From positions 1 to 29,724 of the IMG/VR virus record IMGVR_UViG_3300032731_000230: a DNA stretch of 29,724 nt, one strand, 5' to 3'. A program made the position numbers and the translations under genes. The notes under the pieces are model-generated. The model searched no databases, was not told the DNA's origin, and worked only from the letters and a program-made list of their open reading frames with translations. How positions within the stretch are numbered: position 1 is the stretch's first letter; each line of letters begins with the position of its first letter. The stretch comes from a virus. Shown piece by piece: positions 12,860-29,724 of this stretch.

Positions 12860-12867
12860 TATACAAT

Positions 12868-14067: not shown

Positions 14068-14085
14068 AAATTAGGGAATTAATAA

Positions 14086-14709: not shown

Positions 14710-14764
14710 AAGATTAATTTTTTTATTGGGTTTAATTTAACCCTTAGTGTTTTTTTTCACTTGA

Positions 14765-14872: not shown

Positions 14873-14878
14873 TTTTAT

Positions 14879-14907: not shown

Positions 14908-15055
14908 CTAACCGGAGCTTGGCTTTCCTTTCAGCGCCTCGATTAACAAAAATCTCTTTGATACGATTGTTAATCAATACTGCCCAACCGCCTTTCATTG
15001 CCTCAATCCTATTTGAAGGGATTGGGTTTTCTTTTTTCTTTTTTGTCATACTCAT
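14888..15055 (-). CDS. Small 55-residue basic protein
   Basis: ATG at 15055 (an in-frame ATG also at 15049), stop TAA at 14888-14890. Starts MSMTKKKKENPIPSNRIEA and ends in a helix (GAERKAKLRLAEMLED). The first 47 bases overlap the end of the 89-residue gene in another frame. A later start (MKGGWAVLIN, 14998) would remove the overlap. Position between portal and scaffold genes suggests a minor head-assembly role, but no family is recognised. Confidence 0.45.
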   Translation of the reverse strand: MSMTKKKKENPIPSNRIEAMKGGWAVLINNRIKEIFVNRGAERKAKLRLAEMLED

Positions 15056-15278
15056 CGTTTTTAATCAAATTTATTTCCTTTAAAAACGTCATTAATACTT
15101 CCATTGACATCTCCTTAGCAATAACATTACGCGCGATTGTCGCATCCGGTAAGTCTTTATTTATCTTTGTATTCTCTATTTTATCAATCTCTCTATATAA
15201 CAATTGCTCAATTAAAGGCCAATCCGGTGAATTTACCAATCTATGGATACGTTCTTCTATTGTGGATTCTTCACTCAT
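15009..15278 (-). CDS. Small hypothetical protein after the portal gene
   Basis: 89 residues, helical and charged (EERIHRLVNSPDWPLIEQLL, NVIAKEMSMEVLMTFLKEIN), ending in a basic tail. Overlaps the portal stop by 4 bases (ATGA-type coupling), so it is translated together with the portal. Not recognised. A portal-associated or head-assembly accessory protein is a reasonable guess from position only. Confidence 0.65.
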   Translation of the reverse strand: MSEESTIEERIHRLVNSPDWPLIEQLLYREIDKIENTKINKDLPDATIARNVIAKEMSMEVLMTFLKEINLIKNDEYDKKEKRKPNPFK

Positions 15279-17041
15279 ACTTGTGGTTGTGGTTTAACAG
15301 GGGCTTGAGCCGCCTGTGGTGTCGCTTGTGGCGACCCAGGAGCGGTTTGTGGAGCTTGTGGCGCTACAACTGGCATAGTAACATCAAGTTTACCAAAACC
15401 GCTTAAATTCAAAGCTTCTTGGAATAATGGATTATCTACAAGTGCAGGGTTTTGTCCTAGCGCGGTGATCAACGTACTGATAGTTTGTAGCTTTGTCTGC
15501 TTATCCACACGCTCACCTGTAAATTCAAACTCTACGTCCTCAAAATCGATATATTTTTCCGGTAAATCTAAGAATACGCTCTTTTGTGTTAAAAACCTTT
15601 CAACCAATAATTGCTCAACCAACTGAACTTCTTCTATAGTAGGTTTACGGCCTTCTTCTAAAATGAACTTCTTTACAGCGTCCCATGTCTTGTTTTTGGC
15701 AAACTCTACCGCTAACTCTTTTATTTCCTCTCTGTCAGTAATTTCTAATATCCGTTTCTTTGTAAGTTCTTTACTTAACGCCGGGGCAACCCAATCTTCA
15801 AATATCTCTTGATAGAATAATCCTAACTTCTCGCGGATATGGTCGAATAGTCTGGCCGCATTGCGCTCGAGCATTGCGCCAAGACTGAACGGAGTTCCGC
15901 TCATCATCTTTTCGCCGGTCATTACTTCTCTAGTATTTGCCAAATCTCTTAATAATTTATCTATTTCATTACTGATTTGTTGTTTCTCGCCCAGATTCCG
16001 CACGTTTAACGGAACTTCCTTGATCTCCTTCCGCACCCTAAGAATATCGCCATTCTCCAAGTCGGTCAAAATATTCCTAGCAAGTTTTTTATCTTCTGTT
16101 TGCAATAAAATAATACTACTTAATCTTAATGCCATTTTCATGTAATGCATCTCTTCATTCTTCAAGATTTGCAATTCCTCCAAATCCTCAACAACACTCG
16201 GGCTTAACCACCGACCCTCTACCCTATCACGATGACATTCTTTGAAATATTTATCAGTTACCGTATCTTTATGTAAAACTAAGCCGTCTTTCTTTTCCCA
16301 ATCTTTTTTGCTTGTATCAGGTACTACAATGAAAAATCTACCCCGGACATACTCCTCACTCTTGCCCTTTATCTCACTTTTCTTTACGTCATCAATATAT
16401 TCTCTAACATGGATGTATTGCGAACCACCACGCTTATCATTCTTTGAAAAATTATCAACATAGTTTTCTTTCCCTGATATCTGATAAGCCTCAATCGCCA
16501 TGTCAATAACTTTATCGTTCCATTTCCCTTTCATTTTTCGCAAGTCAGTTGGAGTCATCCATAGTTCCTGGATTGACCAGCATTGATTAAGATTATCAGC
16601 CGTTGGGTCATTCTTCAAATTTCTTAACTGTACCGGCGCGAATATTTTCTTATCATTAGTTTTTTTAGCAACTACACTTCCATAGATAGGAAGCTTATCA
16701 CTGAACTGATTGAATACCTGGCCTAACTTCTCTTTTTTAATAAGGTACTTCAAGGCTCTTCTTAAAATCCACGCCTTCGTCATTGCTGATCGGCGCATAG
16801 CCAAAACATTAATATCTTTTGTATCGATATCAATTTCTTTAGTTTCGTTCTTGCATGCAGGCTTTGTTATGTTGAAGAACCGCACATCCTCATCCGTGCC
16901 ATTAACAAATTTAGAAGCGTAATAAAGATGATTCTTCTTTACCCTATCCATTTGATTAAAATCATAACCCTCAACGATTGTAACGTCTTGATTAACAAAA
17001 TAATCATCGTAAGCTTGGATTCGTTTAAATACGCTTTCCAT
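15275..17041 (-). CDS. Portal protein
   Basis: 588 residues, the usual size for a P22/SU10-like portal. The middle has conserved portal-like features: DPTADNLNQCWSIQELWMT, a long helical stem and crown region (EDLEELQILKNEEMHYMKMA), and the loop GEKMMSGTPFSLGAMLERNA that matches the portal tunnel segment. The C-terminus is Pro/Gln/Ala rich (VAPQAPQTAPGSPQATPQA), probably flexible. Follows the large terminase, the standard position. Role: dodecameric DNA channel at one capsid vertex, docking site for terminase and adaptor. Confidence 0.85.
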   Translation of the reverse strand: MESVFKRIQAYDDYFVNQDVTIVEGYDFNQMDRVKKNHLYYASKFVNGTDEDVRFFNITKPACKNETKEIDIDTKDINVLAMRRSAMTKAWILRRALKYLIKKEKLGQVFNQFSDKLPIYGSVVAKKTNDKKIFAPVQLRNLKNDPTADNLNQCWSIQELWMTPTDLRKMKGKWNDKVIDMAIEAYQISGKENYVDNFSKNDKRGGSQYIHVREYIDDVKKSEIKGKSEEYVRGRFFIVVPDTSKKDWEKKDGLVLHKDTVTDKYFKECHRDRVEGRWLSPSVVEDLEELQILKNEEMHYMKMALRLSSIILLQTEDKKLARNILTDLENGDILRVRKEIKEVPLNVRNLGEKQQISNEIDKLLRDLANTREVMTGEKMMSGTPFSLGAMLERNAARLFDHIREKLGLFYQEIFEDWVAPALSKELTKKRILEITDREEIKELAVEFAKNKTWDAVKKFILEEGRKPTIEEVQLVEQLLVERFLTQKSVFLDLPEKYIDFEDVEFEFTGERVDKQTKLQTISTLITALGQNPALVDNPLFQEALNLSGFGKLDVTMPVVAPQAPQTAPGSPQATPQAAQAPVKPQPQV

Positions 17042-17044
17042 ATA

Positions 17045-17272
17045 TTATTTGAATTTACCTTTATTTCTTAATCTGTTTCTTTTGAAACCCACCATGGCTT
17101 GTTTTTCCTCTCGCATGGATTCTTTTATGTTTTCATCGATAGGGATTGATAATCCACCGTTAAGGATTTTTACCCTTCTCAATGCGCTTCTAGACCAAAC
17201 TTCACTATTAATATCAAATCCATGGTTCAAAACAAGCTGTAATTGTTGTCTGGCATGTTCTACTATCTCCAT
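17045..17272 (-). CDS. Small basic protein between terminase and portal
   Basis: 75 residues, starting MEIVEHARQQLQLVLNHGFD and ending in a basic stretch (GFKRNRLRNKGKFK). Helical, no known motif. Two bases separate it from the large terminase stop and three from the portal start, so it is in the packaging operon. Could be a DNA-packaging accessory protein. No family recognised. Confidence 0.65.
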   Translation of the reverse strand: MEIVEHARQQLQLVLNHGFDINSEVWSRSALRRVKILNGGLSIPIDENIKESMREEKQAMVGFKRNRLRNKGKFK

Positions 17273-17274
17273 AT

Positions 17275-18705
17275 TTATTTGAACCTTCCCATATTTCTAT
17301 TATTGTTCTCCTCTGCCTCAATAAGACTAGCCGGATCAAATATCTCTGTTGGTGGTGAAATATGTAAATGGAAACTTAAAGCGTCAATTAAATCTTTATA
17401 TTTACCGCGTGGGAATTGAATTAACTCGTTCTCAATATCTGTCATCCATGACCGGTGGTAAATCAAGCCCATTTTATACTGTGGGACAAGACCCTTTATC
17501 CGCTGATCTTTATCATGCTTATCAATAAATGTTTCAATGTTAAGATACTTTTTCTGCCGTTTCATTTCCTCTTCAAAGACATATTTCAATGCTTCTTGAT
17601 ATGCAACGCCCTCTATCCAAACCTTAATATCAGCATTCGGATACTTGCCCCTGAACTCATAATACATTTTAAAGGTCGCTTCTATCAGCTCATAAGGATC
17701 AAGCTTTCCCTTAACATAGTCTAGAATGTGCCAATTTGGCGAATATTCCTGTTTTGCAACGCCCAAAATCGCCGTATTACAGGCTTTTTTGCTCTTACTG
17801 ATAGCTGGATCAATCGTAATATCAATATCAAATTGATCAGGTAAATCCTCTTCTTCGAACTTTTTAAAATATTCTTTCTTAAATTCTTGTGTCGCAGCAC
17901 TGATCGGGTTCTGTTGCCATAAACATTCAAAGTCATACAGATCTAGTACGCGTAACCCCTCTAGTTCTTTGAGTGTTTTCTTGAAAGACCATAGAGCTTC
18001 ACCTTCTTTCCGGAACTCTTCATCTTCCACAGCAATGGCCGGGAAACTAATCACATCCCATTTCTCACCAGTTTCTAGCGCTTTTTCTTTTACTCGGCCA
18101 ACCAAATCATCTAAGTGCCACCTAGTCATAATAATTATTACCGCACCCATACCCTCAAGCCGTGTATTCACAACACTCGTGTACCAATTCCAGCATTTCT
18201 CCCGGATAACTTCAGATTCAGCTTCTTCTCTATCTTTTATTGGATCATCGATCAAGAAAATATTTGCGCCACGACCGGTTGTCGCTCCGCCACGCCCGAC
18301 AGAAGTATAACTTCCGCCTTTGTTTGTCTGCCATTTATCCTTTGACTTACTATCTTGTTTTAATCTTGTATCAAATATTGATTGATATTGAGCGTCGCTC
18401 ACAACATCTCGAGTCTTACCGCCAAAATCTTTTGCCAAATCGCCTGAATAAGAAGCGATAATAATCTCTTTATCCGGATTACGGCCTAAAAACCAAGACG
18501 GGAAATAAATACTCGCTAGCTGTGATTTTCCGTGCCGGGGAGGCATCTCAATGATCAAACGATTGATTTCGCCCCTTTCAACCTTCTCCAACGCTTCCGC
18601 TATCTTTCTATGATGCCAATTAACAATATAATTCTTATCGTAAGTTATGCAATAATCAATCAAATGCTTCCGGCTATTTTGTATGGCCAAGTCTTCAATT
18701 GACAT
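17275..18705 (-). CDS. terL: Terminase large subunit (ATPase and nuclease)
   Basis: 476 residues. Walker A is PPRHGKS (55-61), Walker B LIDD (151-154) with the coupling motif TRWH (194-197). The C-terminal RNase H-like nuclease starts ITIDPAIS (first Asp 299), has WIEG (Glu 365), and ends DLIDALSFHLH (Asp 441), giving the acidic metal-binding set. This is the Terminase_6 type. It cuts concatemeric DNA and pumps it through the portal. The gene overlaps the small subunit by 11 bases, and the small subunit ends in TGA across this ATG, so the two are translationally coupled. Confidence 0.95.
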   Translation of the reverse strand: MSIEDLAIQNSRKHLIDYCITYDKNYIVNWHHRKIAEALEKVERGEINRLIIEMPPRHGKSQLASIYFPSWFLGRNPDKEIIIASYSGDLAKDFGGKTRDVVSDAQYQSIFDTRLKQDSKSKDKWQTNKGGSYTSVGRGGATTGRGANIFLIDDPIKDREEAESEVIREKCWNWYTSVVNTRLEGMGAVIIIMTRWHLDDLVGRVKEKALETGEKWDVISFPAIAVEDEEFRKEGEALWSFKKTLKELEGLRVLDLYDFECLWQQNPISAATQEFKKEYFKKFEEEDLPDQFDIDITIDPAISKSKKACNTAILGVAKQEYSPNWHILDYVKGKLDPYELIEATFKMYYEFRGKYPNADIKVWIEGVAYQEALKYVFEEEMKRQKKYLNIETFIDKHDKDQRIKGLVPQYKMGLIYHRSWMTDIENELIQFPRGKYKDLIDALSFHLHISPPTEIFDPASLIEAEENNNRNMGRFK

Positions 18706-19102
18706 TTTTCTGGCGGTTAGTTTCCTCTTCTGCTATTCGCGCTCTCTGTTCAGATGTAAGCAATACACCTCCAACCCTTTCAGTATCTTCACCACTTAAT
18801 AACTGATGACTTTTAGTAAGGGAGTCGTTTATGTAAGCTAAGTCCCGGGCCGCACTATCCTTCAATTTCTTTTGAGTCATTGCGGTTAAAGCCCATCTTC
18901 GTCTATCGTCTATCAATTTCAATAGTTTATCTGTATGTTCCTTAATAGCCTTACCAGCCATTGCCTTTTGTGGTGTTTCTGACATTGATTTAGAGTATCC
19001 GGCTTTAAGCAATAACTCTCCTTTTGTCTTACATTTCTTATTTCCTACATTTTCGGATAATAGCTTTTTTAACCTTTTTTGTTTTTCGGTTGCCCTTTTC
19101 AT
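18695..19102 (-). CDS. terS: Terminase small subunit
   Basis: 135 residues. The N-terminal KGELLLKAGYSKSMSETPQKA is the helix-turn-helix pattern of small terminases (AGYS...A), followed by helical oligomerisation segments (IKEHTDKLLKLIDDRRRWAL) and a charged tail that would contact the large subunit. Overlaps terL by 11 bases. Role: recognises the packaging start site in phage DNA. Size and motif are typical. Confidence 0.85.
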   Translation of the reverse strand: MKRATEKQKRLKKLLSENVGNKKCKTKGELLLKAGYSKSMSETPQKAMAGKAIKEHTDKLLKLIDDRRRWALTAMTQKKLKDSAARDLAYINDSLTKSHQLLSGEDTERVGGVLLTSEQRARIAEEETNRQKNVN

Positions 19103-19142
19103 ATGTAGTCATTTTTTAATCTTTTGTGATTTATTAAAACTT

Positions 19143-19349
19143 TTAGTTATCTTGTAGAAATTCATTTACCGTTGACTCGAGCGATTTCAAGAAATTAACA
19201 TATTCCTTGTGCTGTTTCTCTTTCATTTTCGATCCGTAGCTGTAAGTTGATAACCGGCCTTGCGTTTTTTCCCCCATTCTCTGTTTATCATAGACATACA
19301 ACATCACATAGCCTGCATCGTTTCTTTTTAACTCAATTCCAATATTCAT
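19143..19349 (-). CDS. Small hypothetical protein, first gene of the late operon
   Basis: 68 residues, starting MNIGIELKRNDAGYVMLYVY, mixed alpha/beta, with a C-terminal helix (EYVNFLKSLESTVNEFLQ). It is the first gene after the strong promoter at 19453-19481, and its ATG is preceded within 10 bases by a terminator-like hairpin and U-run. Not recognised. Confidence 0.65.
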   Translation of the reverse strand: MNIGIELKRNDAGYVMLYVYDKQRMGEKTQGRLSTYSYGSKMKEKQHKEYVNFLKSLESTVNEFLQDN

Positions 19350-19354
19350 AAAAC

Positions 19355-19376
19355 AAAAAAAGCAAATTAATGCTTT
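19355..19376 (-). terminator. Terminator-like leader hairpin abutting the first late gene
   Basis: On the minus strand AAAGCA and TGCTTT pair over 6 bp around TTAATT, with the U-run TTTTTTT reaching to within 6 bases of the ATG at 19349. It sits inside the leader of the transcript from 19453-19481. The stem is short and AU-rich, so termination would be partial and suited to attenuation or antitermination control. Confidence 0.4.
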
Positions 19377-19452
19377 AGTTTCTTCCCAACGAATTTATAG
19401 AAGATTGTGGAAACATATAAATAAAAATTAGTTCGAAGTGTTTTCTACTTCT

Positions 19453-19481
19453 GTTATATAACATTTTTTAGCAATCGTCAA
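19453..19481 (-). promoter_or_regulatory. Strong sigma70-type promoter of the late/packaging operon
   Basis: TTGACG (19476-19481), exactly 17 bases, TATAAC (19453-19458) on the minus strand, each 5 of 6 to consensus, preceded by an AT-rich stretch. Transcription would begin near 19446 and run into the terminase genes through a roughly 95-base leader. The only long gene-free gap in this part of the map surrounds it. Confidence 0.7.
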
Positions 19482-19509
19482 TAAAAAGTGTAATACAATA
19501 TTATAAAAC

Positions 19510-19529
19510 CGTGGACAAACTGTGGGTAA
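19510..19529. promoter_or_regulatory. Pair of DnaA-box-like sequences
   Basis: TTACCCACA (minus strand, 19521-19529) differs from the DnaA box TTATCCACA at one base. TTGTCCACG (19510-19518) follows in the same orientation with two mismatches, 11 bases away. AT-rich DNA lies beside them. Could be a replication origin element or host DnaA acting on the promoter 30 bases further on. Two weak sites are not proof. Confidence 0.35.
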
Positions 19530-19817
19530 CTATAATTTCAATACTATATCAACAATTTTAAATACTTCCATTGTTGATCTTAATCTCAACTTTAGAGAGT
19601 CTATATTCAACTCTGTGATTTCTATATTTTTCTTCACTGCTGCCAATTCGTTAATTCTTACAGAATCAAGAGATTGTCCTGTTAATTCAAGTTGAACTTT
19701 CTTCTTGTTGTAATATATCCACTCACTTTGCTGTTGCGCTAATTTAATTAAGTTCTTTTTCCTCTCGTCATGAAGAGCTTCTTCAAAGTCCTTCTTGTTT
19801 TGTTCTTTGATAGTCAT
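19530..19817 (-). CDS. Coiled-coil hypothetical protein
   Basis: 95 residues from ATG at 19817 (MTIKEQNKKDFEEALHDERK). The frame extends upstream without an ATG that avoids the neighbouring 42-residue gene, so this start is preferred. Almost wholly helical, with heptads (VKKNIEITELNIDSLKLRLR). Last gene before the DnaA-like boxes and late promoter. No family recognised. Confidence 0.6.
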   Translation of the reverse strand: MTIKEQNKKDFEEALHDERKKNLIKLAQQQSEWIYYNKKKVQLELTGQSLDSVRINELAAVKKNIEITELNIDSLKLRLRSTMEVFKIVDIVLKL

Positions 19818-19821
19818 AGTT

Positions 19822-19950
19822 TTATTTATTTTTAATCTTTTTAGCTTTCTTTTTCTTGGTACAAAAAATACGTTTATAGTTCTTATCGTATAATTCCCTG
19901 CTCTTCTTTGTTTCAATGGGGTTGCGTTTCACACCACCGAAATCTGTCAT
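19822..19950 (-). CDS. Small very basic protein (42 residues)
   Basis: ATG at 19950, TAA at 19822. MTDFGGVKRNPIETKKSREL at the N-terminus, then a run of Lys (FCTKKKKAKKIKNK). Fills the gap between the HNH gene and the coiled-coil gene with 4 bases to the next start. Probably nucleic-acid binding if expressed. No family recognised. Confidence 0.5.
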   Translation of the reverse strand: MTDFGGVKRNPIETKKSRELYDKNYKRIFCTKKKKAKKIKNK

Positions 19951-19963
19951 AGGTTTTTATTTA

Positions 19964-20323
19964 TTATTTATTTAATTTGCTTTCAAAAAAACCAATTATA
20001 TCCTTGTAATATCCTATGTTTATTTTGGATATTTTGTATTTACTCAATTGTAAATATTGAAACCACTTCGCGCCTCTAAGTAAAACTATCCGGCCAATAA
20101 AATCAGAAGCACGACTGGAATGGAATCCCAGATGACAACCGGTACATACTGGAATCATGTTTTTTTCCTCATATCGCAGAGCAGAACTTGCGGCCTTTGT
20201 AACAAAGTGATGACCGCAAGTTGCAACATTAAGACATAATTCACATTGACTGTTTTTAGAAATAAACCATTGCTGAAATAATTTATCTGCCTTCTTCCTA
20301 TAATAAGCAATTTTTTTTGCCAT
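19964..20323 (-). CDS. NinG/Rap-like HNH protein
   Basis: 119 residues. KKADKLFQQWF at residues 10-20 matches the start of the lambda NinG (Rap) family. Cys27-x2-Cys30 and Cys60-x2-Cys63 form the zinc site; Cys36-Gly-His-His39, Asn55 and His64/His68 provide HNH-type catalytic and structural residues. In lambda, Rap is a Holliday-junction endonuclease acting in recombination. A NinB-like gene at 29118-29513 supports a nin-type set. It lies 2 bases after a membrane protein gene, near the late promoter. Confidence 0.75.
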   Translation of the reverse strand: MAKKIAYYRKKADKLFQQWFISKNSQCELCLNVATCGHHFVTKAASSALRYEEKNMIPVCTGCHLGFHSSRASDFIGRIVLLRGAKWFQYLQLSKYKISKINIGYYKDIIGFFESKLNK

Positions 20324-20325
20324 AA

Positions 20326-20889
20326 TTACTCCTCTGTATTAACTACTGGATCAGGGGTTATTTCTGGTTGAGGTACTGGCGAGGAAATTGAACTTTCCAA
20401 AATCAAAACAATTTCTTCCTTGCTTTGATCTTCATTAATCGAGGTTACATTAACTTTCCCATCTTGTTTCGCCTTGACGACTATTCCCCTCCAAATAGCA
20501 TTGCTGATTTGATTACTTGTTTCAGTCACAAAACCTTGTAAAATCTCTTTTTTTGTTTTACCTTCAACCTCTAAAGTAAATTCATTGAAACCATTTTCTT
20601 TGGCGATCAAAGCAAAATCAGTCACCACTTCTTTGACCAATTGTTCTTTTTGTTTTTCACGATTGTCCTTCATTTTATTATTCACTACATTTCCAATAGA
20701 GAATAAAAGTGTAACCATACAAACTAACGCAATAGAAAACATAACTTTCATTGAAGTATCATTTTGCACTTTTTCAATGAATGTTTCTTTTGGTAGTTCT
20801 CTCTGCTCGCTTGTTGGCTTTGGATCAATTAATGAATCGCCTGTTGGCTCTTTTGGTTCTAGGGCTGGACCTGTTGATTTTTCTTCCAT
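20326..20889 (-). CDS. Membrane-anchored hypothetical protein
   Basis: 187 residues. Cytoplasmic-looking Pro/Glu-rich start (EPKEPTGDSLIDPKP), one membrane helix at about residues 48-66 (VMFSIALVCMVTLLFSIGNV), then a soluble domain with mixed strands and helices (NEFTLEVEGKTKKEILQGF, RGIVVKAKQDGKVNVTSI) and a Pro-rich acidic tail. No enzyme motif. The function is unknown. Exclusion or envelope roles are common for such phage proteins. Confidence 0.65.
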   Translation of the reverse strand: MEEKSTGPALEPKEPTGDSLIDPKPTSEQRELPKETFIEKVQNDTSMKVMFSIALVCMVTLLFSIGNVVNNKMKDNREKQKEQLVKEVVTDFALIAKENGFNEFTLEVEGKTKKEILQGFVTETSNQISNAIWRGIVVKAKQDGKVNVTSINEDQSKEEIVLILESSISSPVPQPEITPDPVVNTEE

Positions 20890-20907
20890 AAGATTTTTTT
20901 AAATTAA

Positions 20908-21078
20908 TTAAGTAAACATTATTGCGAGATTAAATATTGTTTCAATAAGTAAAATAGTTCCCAATATTTGAAGAAGGAAATGGTTTTCTTTTTCCATTAA
21001 TAGGATTGCAATCAAACTATGCAAAAGTAATGAAATGTAAGACCAAGAAACACCCAAAAGATTCATGATAAAATCCAT
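20908..21078 (-). CDS. Small two-helix membrane protein (56 residues)
   Basis: ATG at 21078, TAA at 20908-20910. Two hydrophobic helices (LLGVSWSYISLLLHSLIAIL and LLQILGTILLIETIFNLAIM) joined by a charged loop (MEKENH). Tightly set between two other membrane protein genes, 18 bases before the 187-residue gene. Function unknown. Confidence 0.55.
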   Translation of the reverse strand: MDFIMNLLGVSWSYISLLLHSLIAILLMEKENHFLLQILGTILLIETIFNLAIMFT

Positions 21079-21309: not shown

Positions 21310-21936
21310 TTAACTGTTAAGACTTTTTGATATATTCTCTGGCGCATTATTTAGATAGAAGCAAATTAAACTATCTTGTATATGGTAAATTGTATGTTGC
21401 ATGGAAATTTCGTCAATAAATTCTTTGACTTTTGGGATAGTTGGATAATCATGCCAAACTATACAAGAAAAATTATCTGAAAGCATCTTGAAAGCGTTTT
21501 CTGTATCAGCTCTTATTGTCTTGTCATCACGACCACCATCAACTAAAACTATATCCATTTTCCCATAAAACATAGAGTAATCAAAATTTACTGAATCAGC
21601 AATATAATTATGGATGCGTGTTTCGTAGTTTGTATTTGAATAAACTTGTTTAAATTTTTCAATATCAATACTATAAAATTCAAGTTCCGGAAAGTTCATT
21701 GCTAGATTTAACAAAGTTACTCCATAATCTGTTCCAAACTCAAAAAAATTATTTGGTTTTATCATTTTAGTTAAAGCGATCAGAATAAAATCATCAATTG
21801 TTCTTTGTCCGTGCGCAGATTCGATGCCGTTGATATTAGTTGCTTTAGGTGAATAAAGCAATCTAACTGTGTTGCCGGGACTGATTTCACGATTTGTTAG
21901 ATTAAATAAATTTCTGGGAGTAGTACTAATTAACAT
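21310..21936 (-). CDS. Methyltransf_24-like SAM-dependent methyltransferase
   Basis: 208 residues with a class I methyltransferase fold: FFEFGTDYGVTLLNLA (64-79) is the SAM-binding glycine loop, FYSIDIEK the acidic end of strand 2, and DIVLVDGGRDD with CIVWHDYPT and VKEFIDEI match the Methyltransf_24 family often found in small-molecule or sugar modification. No DNA-methyltransferase motif (DPPY or PCQ) is present, so a glycan or metabolite substrate is more likely, perhaps modifying host surface sugars. Neighbours are membrane proteins. Confidence 0.7.
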   Translation of the reverse strand: MLISTTPRNLFNLTNREISPGNTVRLLYSPKATNINGIESAHGQRTIDDFILIALTKMIKPNNFFEFGTDYGVTLLNLAMNFPELEFYSIDIEKFKQVYSNTNYETRIHNYIADSVNFDYSMFYGKMDIVLVDGGRDDKTIRADTENAFKMLSDNFSCIVWHDYPTIPKVKEFIDEISMQHTIYHIQDSLICFYLNNAPENISKSLNS

Positions 21937-21953
21937 ACTGTTTTAAAATTATA

Positions 21954-21974
21954 AATTAATTATTTTAATTAATT
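21954..21974 (-). repeat. Perfect AT-only inverted repeat
   Basis: AATTAATTA, AAA, TAATTAATT on the minus strand: 9 bp perfect, at the stop of the 38-residue gene. Tail TTATAATTTT. May act as a weak terminator or be chance in AT-rich DNA. Confidence 0.3.
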
Positions 21975-22085
21975 CTCATGGTGAAGAGCGAAAAAGCCTG
22001 CGTAGACCTTCCAACGCCCTGTCCGCTTTGTAGTTCTTTTGAATTGTAATTTGTTCTTCTCTGGATTCTTGTTTGGTTTGCCCAT
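21969..22085 (-). CDS. Small basic protein with WKVYAGFFALHHE motif
   Basis: 38 residues, ATG at 22085, TAA at 21969. Basic N-terminus (MGKPNKNPEKNKLQFKRTTK) then RWKVYAGFFALHHEN. The last 13 residues before the stop closely match WRVYAGSFALFHE encoded at 23363-23494, with about 85% DNA identity over 40 bases and mainly synonymous or conservative changes. The paired motif supports translation in this frame. Function unknown. Confidence 0.5.
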   Translation of the reverse strand: MGKPNKNPEKNKLQFKRTTKRTGRWKVYAGFFALHHEN

Positions 22086-22097
22086 GTGTTTAACTGT

Positions 22098-22631
22098 TTA
22101 TTTGGTTAGTTTATTAGGCATATCCTCTAACGCTATCTGGCATAACGCATAGTTAGGACATGCTGGATTAGCACAGACATGGCTCTCTTTTATTGTTTGC
22201 ATATCCTTCATGCATTGGTTACAGGTGTCTTTACTTCCACTTGCGAGGACCGCCGACGGGCGATTGTCAAACCAGTCGTTGCCGAGCCAATGATAGTCCC
22301 AGTCCCACTGCGAGCCATCGTAGTATAAGTATAGTACACGTCGAGTACCATTAGGCGACCGCAGGATTGTTCCAAAAAAAGAAATATATTTACCTTTCCA
22401 TTCTTCAGGAATATGTTTAGGATTATCTAGTAAATACTTTAATACTGCCGAGTTTAACGGCTTTTTATCTTTTAGTTCTTTTAACAAATCTTCGCCTTTG
22501 ATATAATTATCACTTTCTTGCTTTTTTGACAAATACAATTCAATATCTTTAACATCAACTTCACCACAATCTTCGTGGCTCTCTAATTTGTATCCGTCTG
22601 GTACCCACGGTTTTTTTGTGTCTAGTTTCAT
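22098..22631 (-). CDS. Hypothetical protein with DGR-like hypervariable segment and Cys cluster
   Basis: 177 residues. The segment KGKYISFFGTILRSPNG to WFDNRPSAVLAS (about 80-130) is Trp/Asp/Tyr/Asn rich. From Tyr-Tyr-Asp-Gly onward most codons are NNC or NNT between TGG codons (TAC TAC GAT GGC, GAC, GAC TAT CAT, CTC GGC AAC GAC, TTT GAC AAT CGC), the mark left by adenine mutagenesis of AAY codons in diversity-generating retroelements. Local GC is higher than in flanking DNA. The C-terminus has CNQC, CANPAC and C, a likely zinc site. No reverse transcriptase or template repeat is in the window. The role may be variable ligand binding. Confidence 0.6.
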   Translation of the reverse strand: MKLDTKKPWVPDGYKLESHEDCGEVDVKDIELYLSKKQESDNYIKGEDLLKELKDKKPLNSAVLKYLLDNPKHIPEEWKGKYISFFGTILRSPNGTRRVLYLYYDGSQWDWDYHWLGNDWFDNRPSAVLASGSKDTCNQCMKDMQTIKESHVCANPACPNYALCQIALEDMPNKLTK

Positions 22632-22651
22632 AAGTTTGTTTATTTTAGTTT
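22629..22651 (-). repeat. Cassette junction repeat (variant)
   Basis: Minus strand CTAAAATAAACAAACTTATG, the last three bases being the start codon of the 177-residue gene. One base from the copies at 24767 and 25073. No Shine-Dalgarno. Confidence 0.5.
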
Positions 22652-22857
22652 TTCATTAATCTTTTTATAACCCTCTTCTGTTTCCTTGTCGGTATAGCTC
22701 CCTCTAATTTCGGTTTAGCTGTTCCATATTTACCAAAACAAACAATACCATATGGTGTCCCTAGAACTTCGTATTTTAGCTTTCTTAGATTATTATTAAG
22801 GTTTTCGTACTTCTCTTCTAAAATGTACAACCTCTCTTGTAGTTCTTTTTTTCTCAT
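22645..22857 (-). CDS. Small coiled-coil protein
   Basis: 70 residues. N-terminal heptads (ELQERLYILEEKYENLNNNL) then a short compact part (GTPYGIVCFGKYGTAKPKLE) and a basic tail (RKQKRVIKRLMKN). Its start lies in the conserved cassette junction. Not recognised. The basic tail suggests nucleic-acid contact. Confidence 0.6.
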   Translation of the reverse strand: MRKKELQERLYILEEKYENLNNNLRKLKYEVLGTPYGIVCFGKYGTAKPKLEGAIPTRKQKRVIKRLMKN

Positions 22858-22875
22858 AAGTTTATTTGGTTAGTT
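22855..22875 (-). repeat. Cassette junction repeat copy
   Basis: Minus strand ACTAACCAAATAAACTTATG. It carries the L-T-K stop of the preceding gene and, at its 3' end, the ATG of the 70-residue gene. Identical copy at 23288-23308. Confidence 0.6.
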
Positions 22876-23020
22876 CTTCGTTAATTATATCAACAATATC
22901 TTTTGACCAATTTTTTAATGAAGCAACGTATATACGAATAACATCTCCCTCTTGATTATTAGCCAATGTACTCATTTCTGACGCTAATATACCTAACCTA
23001 ATTTTATTTTTTTCTTGCAT
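22862..23020 (-). CDS. Small helical protein (52 residues)
   Basis: ATG at 23020, TAA at 22862. Starts MQEKNKIRLGILASEMSTLA and ends IVDIINEELTK. The AAGGAG inside the preceding gene end lies 13 bases upstream of this ATG, which is long for a Shine-Dalgarno. Sits in a run of small cassette genes. Function unknown. Confidence 0.5.
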   Translation of the reverse strand: MQEKNKIRLGILASEMSTLANNQEGDVIRIYVASLKNWSKDIVDIINEELTK

Positions 23021-23021
23021 A

Positions 23022-23156
23022 TTATTTATTCAACTCCTTTGTTGTTACTTCTTCGCAACTTCCCTCGCTTACATTATCAAATAAAATGTCTGTTATTTCA
23101 TCTATTGATGTTTCTTCGTCATCTATAACTATTCTAATATCAAATATTCTTTTCAT
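23022..23156 (-). CDS. Small acidic protein (44 residues)
   Basis: ATG at 23156, preceded by AAGGAGTTAAT (good Shine-Dalgarno, spacing 6). MKRIFDIRIVIDDEETSIDE suggests a short beta strand then acidic helix. TAA at 23022. One base before the next ATG. Strong ribosome site supports expression. Function unknown. Confidence 0.55.
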   Translation of the reverse strand: MKRIFDIRIVIDDEETSIDEITDILFDNVSEGSCEEVTTKELNK

Positions 23157-23173
23157 ATTAACTCCTTATTTGG

Positions 23174-23290
23174 TTAGTTTATTTCTTCTAAAATTTCTTC
23201 GATTGCTATCCCTCCGAATGTTACGGCATCTTTAACAGCAGCTATTGGTAGCTCAACAACAGTTTTAACAAGTGCTTTTAATAGTCCCAT
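23174..23290 (-). CDS. Small conserved-looking phage protein (38 residues)
   Basis: ATG at 23290, TAA at 23174. MGLLKALVKTVVELPIAAVK, then DAVTFGGIAIEEILEEIN. The K-T-V-V-E-L-P-x-A-x-V-K-D pattern recurs in tiny phage proteins that I recall without a known function. Amphipathic helix, possibly membrane-peripheral. Starts in a cassette junction without Shine-Dalgarno. Confidence 0.6.
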   Translation of the reverse strand: MGLLKALVKTVVELPIAAVKDAVTFGGIAIEEILEEIN

Positions 23291-23308
23291 AAGTTTATTT
23301 GGTTAGTT
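23288..23308 (-). repeat. Cassette junction repeat copy
   Basis: Minus strand ACTAACCAAATAAACTTATG, same as 22855-22875. Here the DNA before it is a structured non-coding element, although the frame still reads L-T-K stop, so the repeat is kept even where the upstream gene is not obvious. Confidence 0.6.
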
Positions 23309-23318
23309 TTAAATCGGA

Positions 23319-23360
23319 GAGCGATAGTTTGTACAGAGGGTCGTAACCCTACTATCGCTC
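23319..23360 (-). ncRNA. Stem-closed RNA element with inner hairpin
   Basis: GAGCGATAGT/ACTATCGCTC, 10 bp perfect (23351-23360 with 23319-23328), encloses an AGGGT-TACG-ACCCT hairpin (23337-23350) and 8 unpaired bases. It begins 2 bases after the stop of the WRVYAG-type frame. First of four such elements in 390 bases. Either strand could fold; minus is favoured by gene direction. Confidence 0.45.
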
Positions 23361-23362
23361 GC

Positions 23363-23494
23363 CTAGGACTCATTGAGCATAGGGAACTCGTGGAAACCTA
23401 CGCCGTTTTTACTTTCTTTGCCACCAATGATGTCCTCATGGAAGAGAGCGAAAGAACCTGCGTAGACCCTCCAAGAGTCCGTCTGGCAGTCCAA
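23363..23494 (-). CDS. Possible small protein with WRVYAGSFALFHE motif
   Basis: 43 residues if started at TTG 23494 (no ATG after the in-frame TAA), stop TAG at 23363. WRVYAGSFALFHED matches WKVYAGFFALHHE of the 38-residue gene at 21969-22085, then IIGGKESKNGVGFHEFPMLN follows. A different frame with an ATG (MEGSERLKVLIIGLPDG) overlaps, and the DNA also forms a long hairpin, so the frame may be a degraded or leaderless gene. Kept because of the protein-level match. Confidence 0.35.
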   Translation of the reverse strand: MDCQTDSWRVYAGSFALFHEDIIGGKESKNGVGFHEFPMLNES

Positions 23495-23531
23495 TGATAA
23501 GGACTTTTAATCTCTCGCTTCCCTCCATGAG
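23435..23531 (-). ncRNA. Long 21-bp imperfect hairpin element
   Basis: Minus strand CTCATGGAGGGAAGCGAGAG pairs with the arm ending CTCTCTTCCATGAG: 21 paired positions, one A-C mismatch and three G-U pairs, only possible as wobble on this strand. Inside are AGTCC/GGACT and a smaller hairpin. It overlaps the WRVYAG-type frame and carries an ATG in its 5' arm, so it may hide a start codon. Confidence 0.5.
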
Positions 23532-23574
23532 ATGTTAACCTCATTCTTTTGTAGGGTTAACGGTTGTTAAAGAG

Positions 23575-23637
23575 GACTGGTTGGATTGGGGTTCGAACCT
23601 ATACCACCCTTAAGACGGTGAGTACCACCAACCAGCC
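23575..23637 (-). ncRNA. tRNA-like element without a D arm
   Basis: Closing stem GGCTGGTTGG/CCAACCAGTC (10 bp, one G-U). Inside: a stem-loop ACCGT-CTTAAGG-GTGGT with a 7-base loop that would present UAA like an anticodon, then GGTTCGAACC, the exact T-loop consensus. Only 7 bases separate the closing stem from the anticodon-like stem, so there is no D arm, the T stem is weak, and no CCA end is encoded. A decayed tRNA-Leu, a tRNA mimic or an RNA of the same type as its neighbours are all possible. Confidence 0.45.
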
Positions 23638-23647
23638 ATCAAATCAA

Positions 23648-23704
23648 GCAATAATGACTTTGGGAGTTCCCACCTGCGAACAGATGAAAGTTAGCCATTA
23701 TTGC
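23648..23704 (-). ncRNA. Three-way-junction-like RNA element
   Basis: GCAATAATG/CATTATTGC (9 bp perfect) then ACTTT/AAAGT (5 bp) close two hairpins: CATCTG-TTCG-CAGGTG (6 bp, G-U pair on this strand only) and GGG-AACT-CCC. Same layout and length as the tRNA-like element 10 bases further on. It overlaps the stop of the 37-residue gene, and an ATGGCT overlaps that stop (TAATG), opening a 19-codon frame. Confidence 0.5.
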
Positions 23705-23811
23705 CTGGTTTGAATTAGCATTTTATGAATATGTTTTAATGCTTTTTCTAAATTCGGTATCTTTGCTTTCCTTGCAGTACTTAATGCTTTTTCATATTCA
23801 GTCTTCTTCAT
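23698..23811 (-). CDS. Small helical basic protein (37 residues)
   Basis: ATG at 23811 with GGAGTAAAT Shine-Dalgarno (AGAGGAG, spacing 6), TAA at 23698. MKKTEYEKALSTARKAKIPN, then LEKALKHIHKMLIQTRQ. The ribosome site lies in the end of the previous gene. Function unknown. Confidence 0.55.
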   Translation of the reverse strand: MKKTEYEKALSTARKAKIPNLEKALKHIHKMLIQTRQ

Positions 23812-23813
23812 AT

Positions 23814-23951
23814 TTACTCCTCTGATTCGTTAAATAAATCGTCTAAGTCATCTTCTAAATAATCCAACTTAATACGGCTATCCCACTCCTTGAGTGCGTA
23901 GACAATCTTTTCCAATATGCTTTTTAGTTTTTTCATTTCTTCCTTCTTCAT
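23814..23951 (-). CDS. Small acidic helical protein (45 residues)
   Basis: ATG at 23951 with AGAGGAGTAAAT upstream, TAA at 23814. MKKEEMKKLKSILEKIVYAL, then an acidic end (YLEDDLDDLFNESEE). The final SEE codons (TCAGAGGAG) double as the Shine-Dalgarno of the next gene. Function unknown. Confidence 0.55.
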   Translation of the reverse strand: MKKEEMKKLKSILEKIVYALKEWDSRIKLDYLEDDLDDLFNESEE

Positions 23952-23953
23952 AT

Positions 23954-24133
23954 TTACTCCTCTGATTTAATTGTCCATTCTTCTTTTGGTTCTTCTAATA
24001 AATATTTTTTATAAAGTTCTAATCCAAAAGTTGCCCAGAAATTCTGTTGTTCTGACGGACTTAGCCAATAACCAAAATTCTGCTTCATTTCATTATATAT
24101 ATTGGTTATTTCTTTTTTAGTTTCATCTTCCAT
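23954..24133 (-). CDS. Small acidic protein (59 residues)
   Basis: ATG at 24133 with AAAGGAGTAAAT upstream, TAA at 23954. MEDETKKEITNIYNEMKQNF, then GYWLSPSEQQNFWATFGLEL and an end in KSEE that again encodes the next gene's Shine-Dalgarno. Not recognised. Confidence 0.55.
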   Translation of the reverse strand: MEDETKKEITNIYNEMKQNFGYWLSPSEQQNFWATFGLELYKKYLLEEPKEEWTIKSEE

Positions 24134-24135
24134 AT

Positions 24136-24375
24136 TTACTCCTTTAGTTTATTTAAGATTTCTTGACGGCATTCGTTGAAAGCTCTAGCATAAAAATTAG
24201 CTGGAGTTTTTACTTCCTTCTCCTCTGGCAACACATCCAACACAGCCTGCTTTATCTGGGCGTGGATGAATTGTTTGATATTAGTTGCATCCCAAACATC
24301 TCTTAAATGATAATCAGATACAAACTGCTCATCAAAATCATTATCTACTCGCTCTAATATCTTGTTTAGTTTCAT
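24136..24375 (-). CDS. Hypothetical protein with FIHAxIKQAVLDV motif
   Basis: 79 residues. IKQFIHAQIKQAVLDVLPEE is shared, with small changes, with the 76-residue protein at 26455-26685 (IKLFIHAEIKQAVLDVVEE), so the two are paralogues. The N-terminus (MKLNKILERVDNDFDEQFV) and C-terminus (ARAFNECRQEILNKLKE) are helical. Function unknown. The ATG at 24375 has no clear Shine-Dalgarno. Confidence 0.65.
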   Translation of the reverse strand: MKLNKILERVDNDFDEQFVSDYHLRDVWDATNIKQFIHAQIKQAVLDVLPEEKEVKTPANFYARAFNECRQEILNKLKE

Positions 24376-24387
24376 AGGGTTATCTTA

Positions 24388-24594
24388 TTAATTTCTTCTT
24401 TTTACACCAACAATAGCTTCCAAATAATCTGAAGCCAATACAATTTCTTCTTCTTCCGATAATGGTTTTCCGTTTTCTCTTGCTTCAATAGCACCTGAAG
24501 AAAGTTCTAACCCAACATGAGCTGTAACTCCCTTAAACTGAATATATAATGTTTTAGGTATTCTTGTGTCCAAAGTGTAATATATTTTCTCCAT
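24388..24594 (-). CDS. Small alpha/beta hypothetical protein
   Basis: 68 residues: short strands (KIYYTLDTRIPKTLYIQF, AHVGLELSSGAIEARENG) then a helix (SEEEEIVLASDYLEAIVG). Preceded by the L-T-K stop of the upstream membrane protein and a longer than usual AT-rich gap. Not recognised. Confidence 0.6.
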   Translation of the reverse strand: MEKIYYTLDTRIPKTLYIQFKGVTAHVGLELSSGAIEARENGKPLSEEEEIVLASDYLEAIVGVKRRN

Positions 24595-24607
24595 ACTACT
24601 TATGTTT

Positions 24608-24769
24608 TTATTTGGTTAGTTTAGATAAAATATAGCTTATATTCTCGGAATTATTCTTGATAAGCCATGACTGCTCTTGAACGATATTAAACACACGACG
24701 TTGTAATATCAAAACTGCAATTAAATCAACCGCTAGTATCAATATAACGACGCTTTGTAATAGCTCCAT
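24608..24769 (-). CDS. Small single-pass membrane protein (53 residues)
   Basis: ATG at 24769, TAA at 24608. MELLQSVVILILAVDLIAVL is a membrane helix, then a polar tail ending SYILSKLTK. Starts in a cassette junction. The L-T-K end is shared with two neighbours because it is encoded by the junction DNA. Function unknown. Confidence 0.55.
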   Translation of the reverse strand: MELLQSVVILILAVDLIAVLILQRRVFNIVQEQSWLIKNNSENISYILSKLTK

Positions 24770-24789
24770 AAGTTTGTTTATGTTAGTTT
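24767..24789 (-). repeat. Cassette junction repeat copy
   Basis: Minus strand CTAACATAAACAAACTTATG followed by GAG, the start of the 53-residue membrane protein. Identical to 25073-25095 over the whole motif. Confidence 0.6.
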
Positions 24790-25075
24790 ATAAAGCCACT
24801 CTGTTTTTTAACTCATTTATTAAAGCATTCATTCTTTCTATAACATCAATATCTTTCTGAATATCCTCCGCCAAATCACAATCTCTTTTTGCTCTATCCT
24901 TTCCAACTTCCTCTAGCTTTTCTGGTGTTAAAACTGGATTCAGCTTTTGAGTTAATAGAGAAATGTTTTCATCCAATCTTTGAATTTCTTTATCCAATAT
25001 TGACATTACCATTTGAATTTCAGGTGTTTCGCCGATTTTAGTTTTAGCACCTTCACATTGTTCTAAATTCTCCAT
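24788..25075 (-). CDS. Coiled-coil hypothetical protein
   Basis: 95 residues, almost fully helical with heptads (MVMSILDKEIQRLDENISLL, IQKDIDVIERMNALINELKN). Two Cys, no motif. The region upstream holds the structured RNA at 25112-25231, so this may be the gene controlled by it. Not recognised. Confidence 0.65.
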   Translation of the reverse strand: MENLEQCEGAKTKIGETPEIQMVMSILDKEIQRLDENISLLTQKLNPVLTPEKLEEVGKDRAKRDCDLAEDIQKDIDVIERMNALINELKNRVAL

Positions 25076-25095
25076 AAGTTTGTTTATGTTAGTTT
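25073..25095 (-). repeat. Cassette junction repeat copy
   Basis: Minus strand CTAACATAAACAAACTTATG followed by GAG, starting the 95-residue gene. Here no coding frame precedes it, only the structured RNA region. Confidence 0.6.
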
Positions 25096-25111
25096 AATTA
25101 ATTAATCAACT

Positions 25112-25231
25112 AAAGGGGCATAAGTATGTATCTTTTTCTACAAATTAAGCTGTTGATTGTACTAATTGCGCATGACGATAAAAGAACAAATTTGATTTCG
25201 TCAACTGCGCGAAGTGGTCTTATACCCCTTT
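25112..25231 (-). ncRNA. Structured RNA with 13-bp closing stem
   Basis: In the 162-base gene-free gap. AAAGGGGTATAAG (25219-25231) pairs with CTTATGCCCCTTT (25112-25124), 13 bp with one G-U that becomes a C-A mismatch on the plus strand, so the minus strand is the likely RNA. Inside, GCGC + TGACGA (25207-25210, 25198-25203) pairs with TCGTCA + GCGC (25173-25178, 25168-25171), 10 bp with an internal loop. A TATAAT at 25237-25242 could start transcription right at the stem. Nothing known recognised. Leader, riboswitch-like element or small RNA are open. Confidence 0.55.
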
Positions 25232-25237
25232 GGCTAA

Positions 25238-25552
25238 TTATAAATTCCATGGATTACATTTTGGTTTGGCCTCATCTCCTCCCCAGGAGTGCCGAATTTG
25301 GCCAGATTCTGCCTTCTGTGCTGATTCCGTCGCCAATATGGTATCTCGTACCCCTTCCCACCTATAAGCGATTGTAGCACCTTTTTTATTAGGGATCGAA
25401 ATTACATTCGGACTTTCAGATTTTCTAAGTCTTCTTTCACCATTTGAAACTTTATAACCAAGATCACGACAGATCTGTTCCATTTCAGCAACAGTGATCT
25501 CACCTCTTGATTTTATTATTTCGTTTAGTTTTTGTTTTAATCCGACCCGCAT
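25238..25552 (-). CDS. Winged-helix-like DNA-binding protein
   Basis: 104 residues. KLNEIIKSRGEITVAEMEQI, then CRDLGYKVSNGERRLRKS fits helix-turn-helix plus wing: a first helix, a turn (GEITVAEM), and a recognition-like helix (VSNGERRLRK), then a beta wing (VISIPNKKGATIAYRWEG). Such phage proteins are often small regulators. Overlaps the 64-residue gene start region by 53 bases. Target unknown. Confidence 0.6.
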   Translation of the reverse strand: MRVGLKQKLNEIIKSRGEITVAEMEQICRDLGYKVSNGERRLRKSESPNVISIPNKKGATIAYRWEGVRDTILATESAQKAESGQIRHSWGGDEAKPKCNPWNL

Positions 25553-26454: not shown

Positions 26455-26685
26455 CTATTTATAATGATTTCTTAGAACACTTATAATCCAATCACTACCA
26501 CTATATACATCACCCTTTTTATCAATCATGGTAATAGTTTCTTCAACCACATCCAACACAGCCTGCTTGATTTCGGCGTGGATGAAGAGTTTTATATTTT
26601 TATAATCAACACATATTGTTTCATTGTCCTGATAAACAAAATTTAATTTATCAAGTTCTCTGTCTACTTGTTGTTCTGGTTTCAT
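26455..26685 (-). CDS. Hypothetical protein, paralogue with FIHAxIKQAVLDV motif
   Basis: 76 residues. IKLFIHAEIKQAVLDVVEE matches the 79-residue protein at 24136-24375. The start has AAGGAGTTAAT, a strong Shine-Dalgarno, which lies in the end of the previous gene; the reading frames overlap by 4 bases (ATGA). N-terminus MKPEQQVDRELDKLNFVYQD. Function unknown. Confidence 0.65.
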   Translation of the reverse strand: MKPEQQVDRELDKLNFVYQDNETICVDYKNIKLFIHAEIKQAVLDVVEETITMIDKKGDVYSGSDWIISVLRNHYK

Positions 26686-27831: not shown

Positions 27832-27898
27832 AAAAAAAACTCTCTTAACATGAGTTGCCAGGCTTTCATCAAGCCCTACGCTCATATTGAGAGAGTTT
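27832..27898 (-). terminator. Leader hairpin with U8 tail abutting a start codon
   Basis: Stem 1 AAACTCTCT/AGAGAGTTT (27890-27898 with 27837-27845, 9 bp), stem 2 TATGAG/CTCATG, stem 3 GGCTT/AAGCC, then TTTTTTTT and immediately ATG at 27831. Transcription from the promoter just upstream would begin at the first base of stem 1. It is a complete terminator or attenuator, or a 70-nt independent small RNA, and could be released by an antiterminator. The structure is clear, the function inferred. Confidence 0.6.
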
Positions 27899-27906
27899 CT
27901 GATGAA

Positions 27907-27935
27907 ATTATGGCAAGATTTATTGATTGTGTCAA
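27907..27935 (-). promoter_or_regulatory. Consensus sigma70 promoter
   Basis: TTGACA (27930-27935), 17 bases, CATAAT (27907-27912) on the minus strand: 6 of 6 and 5 of 6 to consensus with ideal spacing. Start expected near 27900, at the first base of the leader hairpin. Best promoter in the window. Confidence 0.8.
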
Positions 27936-27945
27936 TTGTATTCAT

Positions 27946-27982: not shown

Positions 27983-27996
27983 CTATCTAAAAACAC

Positions 27997-28079
27997 CCAG
28001 AAGGCTGTGGCGGTGATCTTAAGTAAATAAGCCCAACACCGCACAGCCCATGCTTGACTGCCTTTCGACAGCCTTCCGG
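27997..28079 (-). promoter_or_regulatory. Long stem structure after the cytosine methyltransferase gene
   Basis: CCGGAAGGCTGT (28068-28079) pairs with ACAGCCTTCTGG (27997-28008), 12 bp with one G-U, followed by GTGTTTTTAG. A competing pairing joins GGCTGTGCGGTG (about 28037-28048) with CACCGCCACAGCC (28004-28016) over 12 bp with one bulge, sharing the 3' arm. Two exclusive folds of similar strength suggest a switch or a terminator of the upstream operon. Confidence 0.45.
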
Positions 28080-28083
28080 ATAT

Positions 28084-29115
28084 TTATATTAATTTTTCCA
28101 TTATAGCTTTAACAACATTTACAGTAACAGCATTTCCGGCCATTTTGTACTTTTGAGAATCCGAGATTTCCTTTCCGTCAGCACCAACGTCACACCAATT
28201 ATCCGGAAATGATTGAAGGCGCATACATTCCACCGGGGTTAATCTTCTTATTCTTGCGCCGTCATATACCCCATGTCTGTCTTGAGCAGTATAGGTAAAG
28301 GCTGGCTCTCCTTCTTCTTTAAATCGTCTTCCGTTCTGTCGTTTCTTTAGTCTGTCTGGTGTTAAAACTGGAACTGCATACAAACCAGTCTTTGCACCTT
28401 GACCACCAGCTTGACTGGCCTGAGTGCAACTAATGCCATCAATTTCATAAACTCTATTTCCTTGCCCTCCACTTATAATTTGTTTAAGAGTTTTTGAGTT
28501 ACCTCCTCCAATAGGAAATATTTGTCTTCTACTTTCTCCTCTAGTATGTCCGACAATGAACACTCGTTCCCGGTTTTGTGGAACGCCGAAATTTTTGCTG
28601 TTAAGTACCTGCCATTCAACTCTAAGCCCCACATTGGAGAGAAGCCTAATGATTGTCTGGAAAGTTTTTCCACCGTCATGAGATAGTAAACCTTTAACGT
28701 TTTCAAGTACCACAAGTCTGGGTCGTTTTTCTGCACAAATCCGCAAGATGTCAAAAAAGAGTGTTCCTCTTGCGTCGTCAAATCCTCCCCTTTTTCCAGC
28801 AATACTGAAACTCTGGCAAGGAAATCCGCCAACCAGCATGTCAAAGTCTGGGAGTTCTCCCACATTGATTTTTGTAATGTCGCCATAGTTGTGGTGGTTA
28901 GGGAATTGTTTTTTATAGACTTGGACTGCGTAACGGTCGATTTCACTATAACCCACGCATTCCCATTGCTTGAATTTGTTCTCAATGCTGTGCAATTCTT
29001 TTGGTCTCTTGCTATCCGCCAGTTCATTGGGTCGTAAATTATATATTTCTTCATACGCTTGTTGTATTCCTTTTTCGAAACCTCCGATACCGGAAAATAA
29101 TGATAAGTATTTCAT
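28084..29115 (-). CDS. dcm: C5-cytosine DNA methyltransferase
   Basis: 343 residues. Motif I LSLFSGIGGFEKGI (4-17), motif IV GGFPCQSFS with catalytic Cys100, motif VI ENV (138-140), motif VIII QNRERVF (180-186), variable recognition region about 190-300, and the C-terminal KMAGNAVTVNV helix (motifs IX/X). All are in the canonical order for the Dcm/M.HhaI family. It would methylate a specific cytosine in phage DNA, probably for protection against restriction. The symbol marks the family, and the target site is unknown. Neighbour of a NinB-like gene, 2 bases apart. Confidence 0.95.
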   Translation of the reverse strand: MKYLSLFSGIGGFEKGIQQAYEEIYNLRPNELADSKRPKELHSIENKFKQWECVGYSEIDRYAVQVYKKQFPNHHNYGDITKINVGELPDFDMLVGGFPCQSFSIAGKRGGFDDARGTLFFDILRICAEKRPRLVVLENVKGLLSHDGGKTFQTIIRLLSNVGLRVEWQVLNSKNFGVPQNRERVFIVGHTRGESRRQIFPIGGGNSKTLKQIISGGQGNRVYEIDGISCTQASQAGGQGAKTGLYAVPVLTPDRLKKRQNGRRFKEEGEPAFTYTAQDRHGVYDGARIRRLTPVECMRLQSFPDNWCDVGADGKEISDSQKYKMAGNAVTVNVVKAIMEKLI

Positions 29116-29513: not shown

Positions 29514-29532
29514 ATTTTTATCCCCGGCCGAA

Positions 29533-29585
29533 GGCCTTGTAGCGAACCTAACTCAAGTTAATGAGTAACAGCGCACTACAAGACC
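29533..29585 (-). promoter_or_regulatory. Stem-loop in the leader of the NinB-like gene
   Basis: GGTCTTGTAG (29576-29585) pairs with CTACAAGGCC (29533-29542), 10 bp with one G-U, around a loop with a small ACTC/GAGT hairpin. The GGCC end can pair alternatively with the following TTCGGCC, which lies next to the GGGG-like ribosome site. Possible translational switch or operon terminator for the gene upstream. No U-run. Confidence 0.4.
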
Positions 29586-29605
29586 AATCAGCGAGGGATT
29601 TGAAA

Positions 29606-29724
29606 TTATCTAATCGATAAACTTTTCTTCTTGAAAATCTTCAGGCCGGGAATATTAAATACCTTCTCCTTTATTTTAGCACGCACTTTCACTTCATCCA
29701 AAACAAGATATTCTACCGGAACAA
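29606..29724 (-). CDS. C-terminal fragment of a gene cut by the window edge
   Basis: Last 38-39 codons of a gene whose start lies beyond the window. Reads VPVEYLVLDEVKVRAKIKEK, then VFNIPGLKIFKKKSLSIR and TAA at 29606. Basic, alternating beta/helix. Too short to assign. A 91-base gap with a stem-loop separates it from the NinB-like gene. Confidence 0.5.
   Translation of the reverse strand, partial: VPVEYLVLDEVKVRAKIKEKVFNIPGLKIFKKKSLSIR

Follow-up and report, generated by a model that had tools for sequence, protein, structure and literature searches.

A chain of stem-closed RNA elements between two small genes of an uncultured phage, probably involved in mRNA processing or gene separation

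Our analyses support the view that a spacer of approximately 410 nt (23305-23715) in a virus record of 29.7 kb, hereafter the window, most of whose genes lie on the minus strand, carries stems that are real, are RNA-level features and belong to a wider feature of these phages. Rather than being tRNAs or part of a protein gene, the spacer elements are probably RNA structures that process mRNA or separate genes, and probably a variant form of the intercistronic RNA elements already known from phages. More specifically, the long stems might be intercistronic processing or insulating sites of the RNase III type, similar to those of T7 early mRNA, a reading to which we give a little less than an even chance and which would imply transcription through the spacer, cleavage within it and an effect on the mRNA.

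The spacer is bordered on both sides by small minus-strand ORFs (23698-23811 upstream and 23174-23290 downstream), which would share a common transcript. Four consecutive stem-closed elements had originally been predicted here from the letters alone, and all of them, designated E1 to E4 (Table 1), were recovered at their predicted coordinates by folding the minus strand. The 411-nt region folded at -150.4 kcal/mol, compared with -111.0 +/- 5.3 kcal/mol for shuffled sequences (z -7.4; none of 100 shuffles as good), while the plus strand reached a z of -5.5; minus-strand folding, proposed as a check of the prediction, yielded here the strongest fold of any 400-base stretch in the window. Among 98 sampled minus-strand windows of 400 nt, the spacer was the most extreme, with an energy excess of -34.9 against a mean of -3.6 (sd 8.3), and it contained five long stems where shuffles gave 1.3 on average and 4 at most. 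Its GC content is raised (46% vs 37% in the window) and its GC skew is approximately zero, whereas most windows over the flanking genes lie at -0.3 to -0.4, a pattern in keeping with paired RNA. The claim that G-U pairs favour the minus strand was also sustained in the folded structures (5 vs 1 in E1 and 6 vs 2 in E3). The three-way-junction layout said to be shared by two elements needs correction for E1, where the best fold is a long stem with one hairpin and a 3/8-nt asymmetric loop, the three-way-junction fold being 1 kcal/mol worse.

Table 1. Features of the spacer, its surroundings and the other long gap stems of the window
Feature	Position	Strand	Description
Upstream small ORF	23698..23811	(-)	37 aa; stop codon inside E1
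E1	23639..23713	(-)	Closing stem of ~20 bp, UUCG-loop hairpin, 3/8-nt asymmetric internal loop; 5' arm holds the stop of ORF 23698-23811
E2	23575..23637	(-)	Closing stem of 10 bp, hairpin CACC-GUCUUAAG-GGUG, plus GGUUCGAACC; resembles a D-armless tRNA, fails tRNA tests
Small linker hairpin	23534..23561	(-)	GUUAACC/GGUUAAC, between E2 and E3
E3	23435..23531	(-)	Closing stem of 21 positions (17 Watson-Crick, 3 G-U, 1 A-C); three-way junction within
E4	23316..23363	(-)	Closing stem of 12 bp and inner hairpin; ends 25 nt ahead of the ATG of ORF 23174-23290
Downstream small ORF	23174..23290	(-)	38 aa; gene-like codon usage
Copy of the E3 3' part	21975..22014	(-)	40 nt, 85% identical; within the 36-aa ORF at ~21972-22085
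Stem element	25103..25240	(-)	Element of the spacer's kind; closing stem of 22 positions around 94 nt; starts at the stop of ORF 25238-25552
Stem element	27988..28088	(-)	Element of the spacer's kind; closing stem of 21 positions; starts at the stop of the C5 methylase gene 28084-29115
Stem with U run	27835..27900	(-)	Stem of 20 positions; possible terminator or leader hairpin

On the processing or insulation reading, the spacer is a noncoding, RNA-level chain of stem-closed elements in the minus-strand operon, extending from the stop of one small gene to the ribosome-binding region of the next. Its long stems (20-22 positions, about two helical turns) would be cut by a host enzyme of the RNase III type or, alternatively, would block exonucleases, and the outcome would be separate, differently stable mRNAs for the neighbouring cistrons. 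RNase III prefers approximately two turns of duplex, and the placement from stop to next start, together with the two-turn stems, fits intercistronic processing or insulation. As in RNase III signals of the T7 type, the spacer lies between ORFs of the same strand, and irregular stems of about 20 bp or longer are found in E1 and E3 (20-21 bp); the stems of E2 and E4, in contrast, are no longer than 10-12 bp, which is little for an RNase III site of two turns and argues against processing. An asymmetric internal loop (3/8 nt) occurs in the predicted fold of E1, while no comparable loop was apparent in E3. Two genes could be separated by a single site or a pair of sites; a run of four flanked by ORFs of 37 and 38 aa suggests something more. 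It is conceivable, if unlikely, that the gap stems are gene-specific RNA cassettes in which a closing stem of ~21 bp surrounds differing branched bodies, diced by RNase III into short functional RNAs, with the cluster at 23.3 kb as a four-member array.

The closest known counterparts are the early RNase III signals of T7, which are likewise hairpins between the genes of a polycistronic phage transcript with a stem of about two turns. One of them, R1.1, is a 60-nt RNA between genes 1.0 and 1.1 that has a 4/5-nt asymmetric internal loop, comparable to the 3/8-nt loop predicted in E1, and is cut by RNase III (PMC6121014). In the phages studied here, however, the long stems frequently enclose bodies that are larger and branched (26-108 nt), four elements occupy one spacer and cleavage is inferred. 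Highly structured noncoding RNAs of phage genomes are also represented by GOLLD and ROOL, from which the spacer differs in its smaller size (410 nt), its separate short elements, its lack of an Rfam match and the absence of any sign of a single conserved RNA. Phage tRNA clusters resemble it in their tandem elements of 50-100 nt and in the one T-loop-like hairpin of the spacer, which nevertheless has no D arm, no valid T stem and no match to tRNA models or ARAGORN. Rho-independent terminators are similarly stem loops behind stop codons, whereas none of E1 to E4 has a U run and their loops are large or branched; the hairpins near 14760-14800 and 27835-27900, unlike these elements, look terminator-like.

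Long stems were not confined to the spacer. A closing-stem scan of the window revealed five closing stems of 20-22 positions at gaps or just ahead of a gene, two of them within the spacer. They score 38-44 on the gene strand compared with 30 or less for the others there, have no equivalent in two shuffles, and all pair better on the gene strand; their length is the same irrespective of loop size. Three of the elements (E1, 25103-25240 and 27988-28088) start at the upstream gene's stop codon or overlap it, and in the related records stems start 4 and 7 nt (G002), 15 and 22 nt (G001), 1 nt (L004) and 0, 2 and 9 nt (L103) after stops, with single stems at -16, -5, -3, 0, 1, 2, 4 and 7 nt from the stop. 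Across the window and five related records, a strand-symmetric search outside ORFs yielded 41 G-U against 12 A-C pairs in gap stems read on the gene strand (p 4e-5), or 46 against 12 at a looser score cut-off. Gap stems were 3.3x denser than in control phage contigs (1.37 vs 0.42 per gap kb), a comparison that involves a small focal set of six records, crude gene calls made as simple ORF picks and score cut-offs picked after seeing the window. Eleven of the 14 focal gap stems measured 20-24 positions, and the same number started within 35 nt of the upstream stop, compared with 8 of 23 in the controls. Similarly, gaps with a fold z below -3 were more frequent in the window and two relatives (16/38) than in other phages (54/260; p 0.005). 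Gap stems of the control phages had a G-U excess as well (42 vs 19). Terminators and other stems that are transcribed should give such an excess, and the signal is thus in part a general one. The RNA-level reading holds for gap stems generally; what is special here is their density, uniform length and position.

Among the alternative explanations, it seems improbable that part of the spacer constitutes one or more small protein genes, with the 40-nt copy marking a paralogous gene and the stems being incidental. Two frames stay open over the duplicated E3 stretch, which accounts for the ambiguous translation reported earlier. The open frame 23363-23506 (~47 aa) has the motif W(R/K)VYAG.FAL.HE in common with the 36-aa ORF, and a possible Shine-Dalgarno sequence accompanies the open frame 23436-23528. 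Scored by the phage's own codon usage, the frames within the spacer (0.04, -0.06, -0.08 and -0.11 bits per codon) are nevertheless not like the genome's genes, the flanking small ORFs scoring 0.18 to 0.40 and known genes typically 0.1 to 0.4. Furthermore, changes between E3 and its copy are spread over all codon positions, no relatives of either peptide were found, and a protein gene would leave unexplained a 21-position stem with biased wobble pairs. The proposal that RNA rather than protein is the product is thus supported by fold z, GC skew, codon scores near zero and the strand asymmetry of G-U pairs, and we judge the spacer to be noncoding, although E3 may have captured part of a coding sequence. 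Less credible still is a decayed tRNA gene cluster, or a functional D-armless tRNA in E2. The only copy of the T-loop 10-mer GGTTCGAACC in the window (0.01 expected by chance) lies in E2, placed as in the 3' half of a tRNA: the loop and the acceptor strand have 7 nt each, the T-stem strand has 5 nt, a discriminator A is present and 6 of 7 acceptor-like pairs form. The T stem (AUAGG/CCCAA), however, is broken, with 3 of 5 pairs; only ~5 nt and no D arm separate the acceptor- and anticodon-like stems; the apical loop has 8 nt (GUCUUAAG) in the best fold, instead of the predicted 7-base loop presenting UAA; and forming a 7-nt T loop would cost ~6 kcal/mol relative to the best fold. The Rfam covariance models for tRNA and tmRNA (including RF00005) gave no match at E up to 10, standard ARAGORN found no tRNA in E2 and no recognisable tRNA gene in the window, its mitochondrial and relaxed settings gave weak overlapping calls only, and the exact 3'-half pattern had no match in ~85,000 prokaryote genomes. 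Nor do E1, E3 and E4 show any tRNA feature. A permuted tmRNA call (tag ANFHLFAGG...) obtained with relaxed ARAGORN was rejected, the same settings giving 15 other calls and Rfam no tmRNA match. The T-loop sequence and the missing D arm of the original description therefore stand, the tRNA likeness of E2 is at most a partial resemblance and the tRNA label should be dropped, even if E2 may be tRNA-derived in origin.

The main rival to processing, possible though doubtful, is that the elements are independent small RNAs (short noncoding RNA genes or one 400-nt noncoding RNA) cut from the operon transcript and acting in trans, e.g. as antisense RNAs or decoys for host nucleases. Consistent with such a role, most of the 410-nt spacer is taken up by the four successive elements, every one of which folds independently, and in G001 promoter-like sites (TTGACA/TATACT) stand directly ahead of stem-closed elements. 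In addition, the copy at 21975-22014 is one of the best predicted pairing partners, E3 itself aside, for the 5' arm of E3 (-21.9 kcal/mol), a contact that might be regulatory. On the other side, promoter-like sites are not enriched near the spacer relative to shuffles, and no terminator-like site (a G+C-rich hairpin followed by a U run) was found on the minus strand in 21900-24700. E1 overlaps a gene end and the spacer sequence is not conserved in related phages. As originally reported, no known RNA family was recognised, Rfam (GOLLD, ROOL and tmRNA included) giving no match at the gathering threshold in the window or in the related phages, and only noise at E up to 10. Three further candidates were discarded: a diversity-generating repeat, as the 40-nt copy differs at non-A bases and the genes examined included no obvious reverse transcriptase; a mobile palindromic repeat family, as stem sequences, the 40-nt copy excepted, do not recur in the window; and TIGR guide arrays, because the elements are not repeats.

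Spacer homologues searched for by blastn gave short chance matches only in phages and nothing in plasmids, and neither spacer sequence patterns nor homologues of the neighbouring small proteins were found in viral contigs. A match to the E1 arms in L007 proved to be coding sequence and a product of chance. One record (L003) is 99.99% identical to positions 7278-20996 of the window and ends before the spacer, while the gene at 24788-25075 is common to G001 (64% amino-acid identity) and G002 (89%). Terminase identity is 54% in L004, 45% in L103 and 41% in L109, the last two being MAG contigs binned as Pacearchaeota and Shapirobacteria, respectively. As these two are among the closest terminase relatives, they might hint at ultrasmall prokaryote hosts, although phage contigs are binned unreliably and no host can be assigned on this basis. 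The promoters in G001 resemble those of sigma-70, which suggests a bacterium as host.

Three further hairpin features lie on the minus strand of the window. An intergenic hairpin (ACAACGAGAA/UUCUCGUUGU) at 14755-14870, upstream of the gene 14086-14709, carries a bulge CAGGG that can pair with CCCUG just downstream, forming a possible pseudoknot; behind it lies a strong terminator that includes a U run. At 27835-27940, a promoter-like TTGACA-17-CATAAT is directly followed by the 20-position stem and U run of Table 1, just ahead of a gene start, an arrangement resembling a promoter coupled to an attenuator or to a leader hairpin. A very stable hairpin at 29519-29620 ends 5 nt ahead of the ATG of a NinB-like gene and has AUCCCUCGCU in common with a similar pre-ATG hairpin near 1448-1547 of G002 (L100). 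Elsewhere in the window, leader motifs recur ahead of small genes (24755-24790, 25061-25096, 22090-22115 and 23158-23183), with exact repeats of 27 nt between leaders, and a 51-nt repeat of 88% identity lies within two paralogous small genes (24232-24282 and 26548-26598). Repeated palindromes TTATGC-(TTTT or GTTT)-GCATAA are clustered at record positions 32640-32900 of G001 (L098).

If the elements process or insulate mRNA, an uncultured phage lineage would organise its operons of tiny genes by intercistronic RNA structure, well beyond the few signals of T7, and closing stems of 20-22 bp at stop codons, with a G-U bias on the gene strand, would provide a sequence-only signature by which other phages could be screened. 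The release of discrete RNAs would instead mean that the phage has a set of small RNAs that has gone unrecognised.
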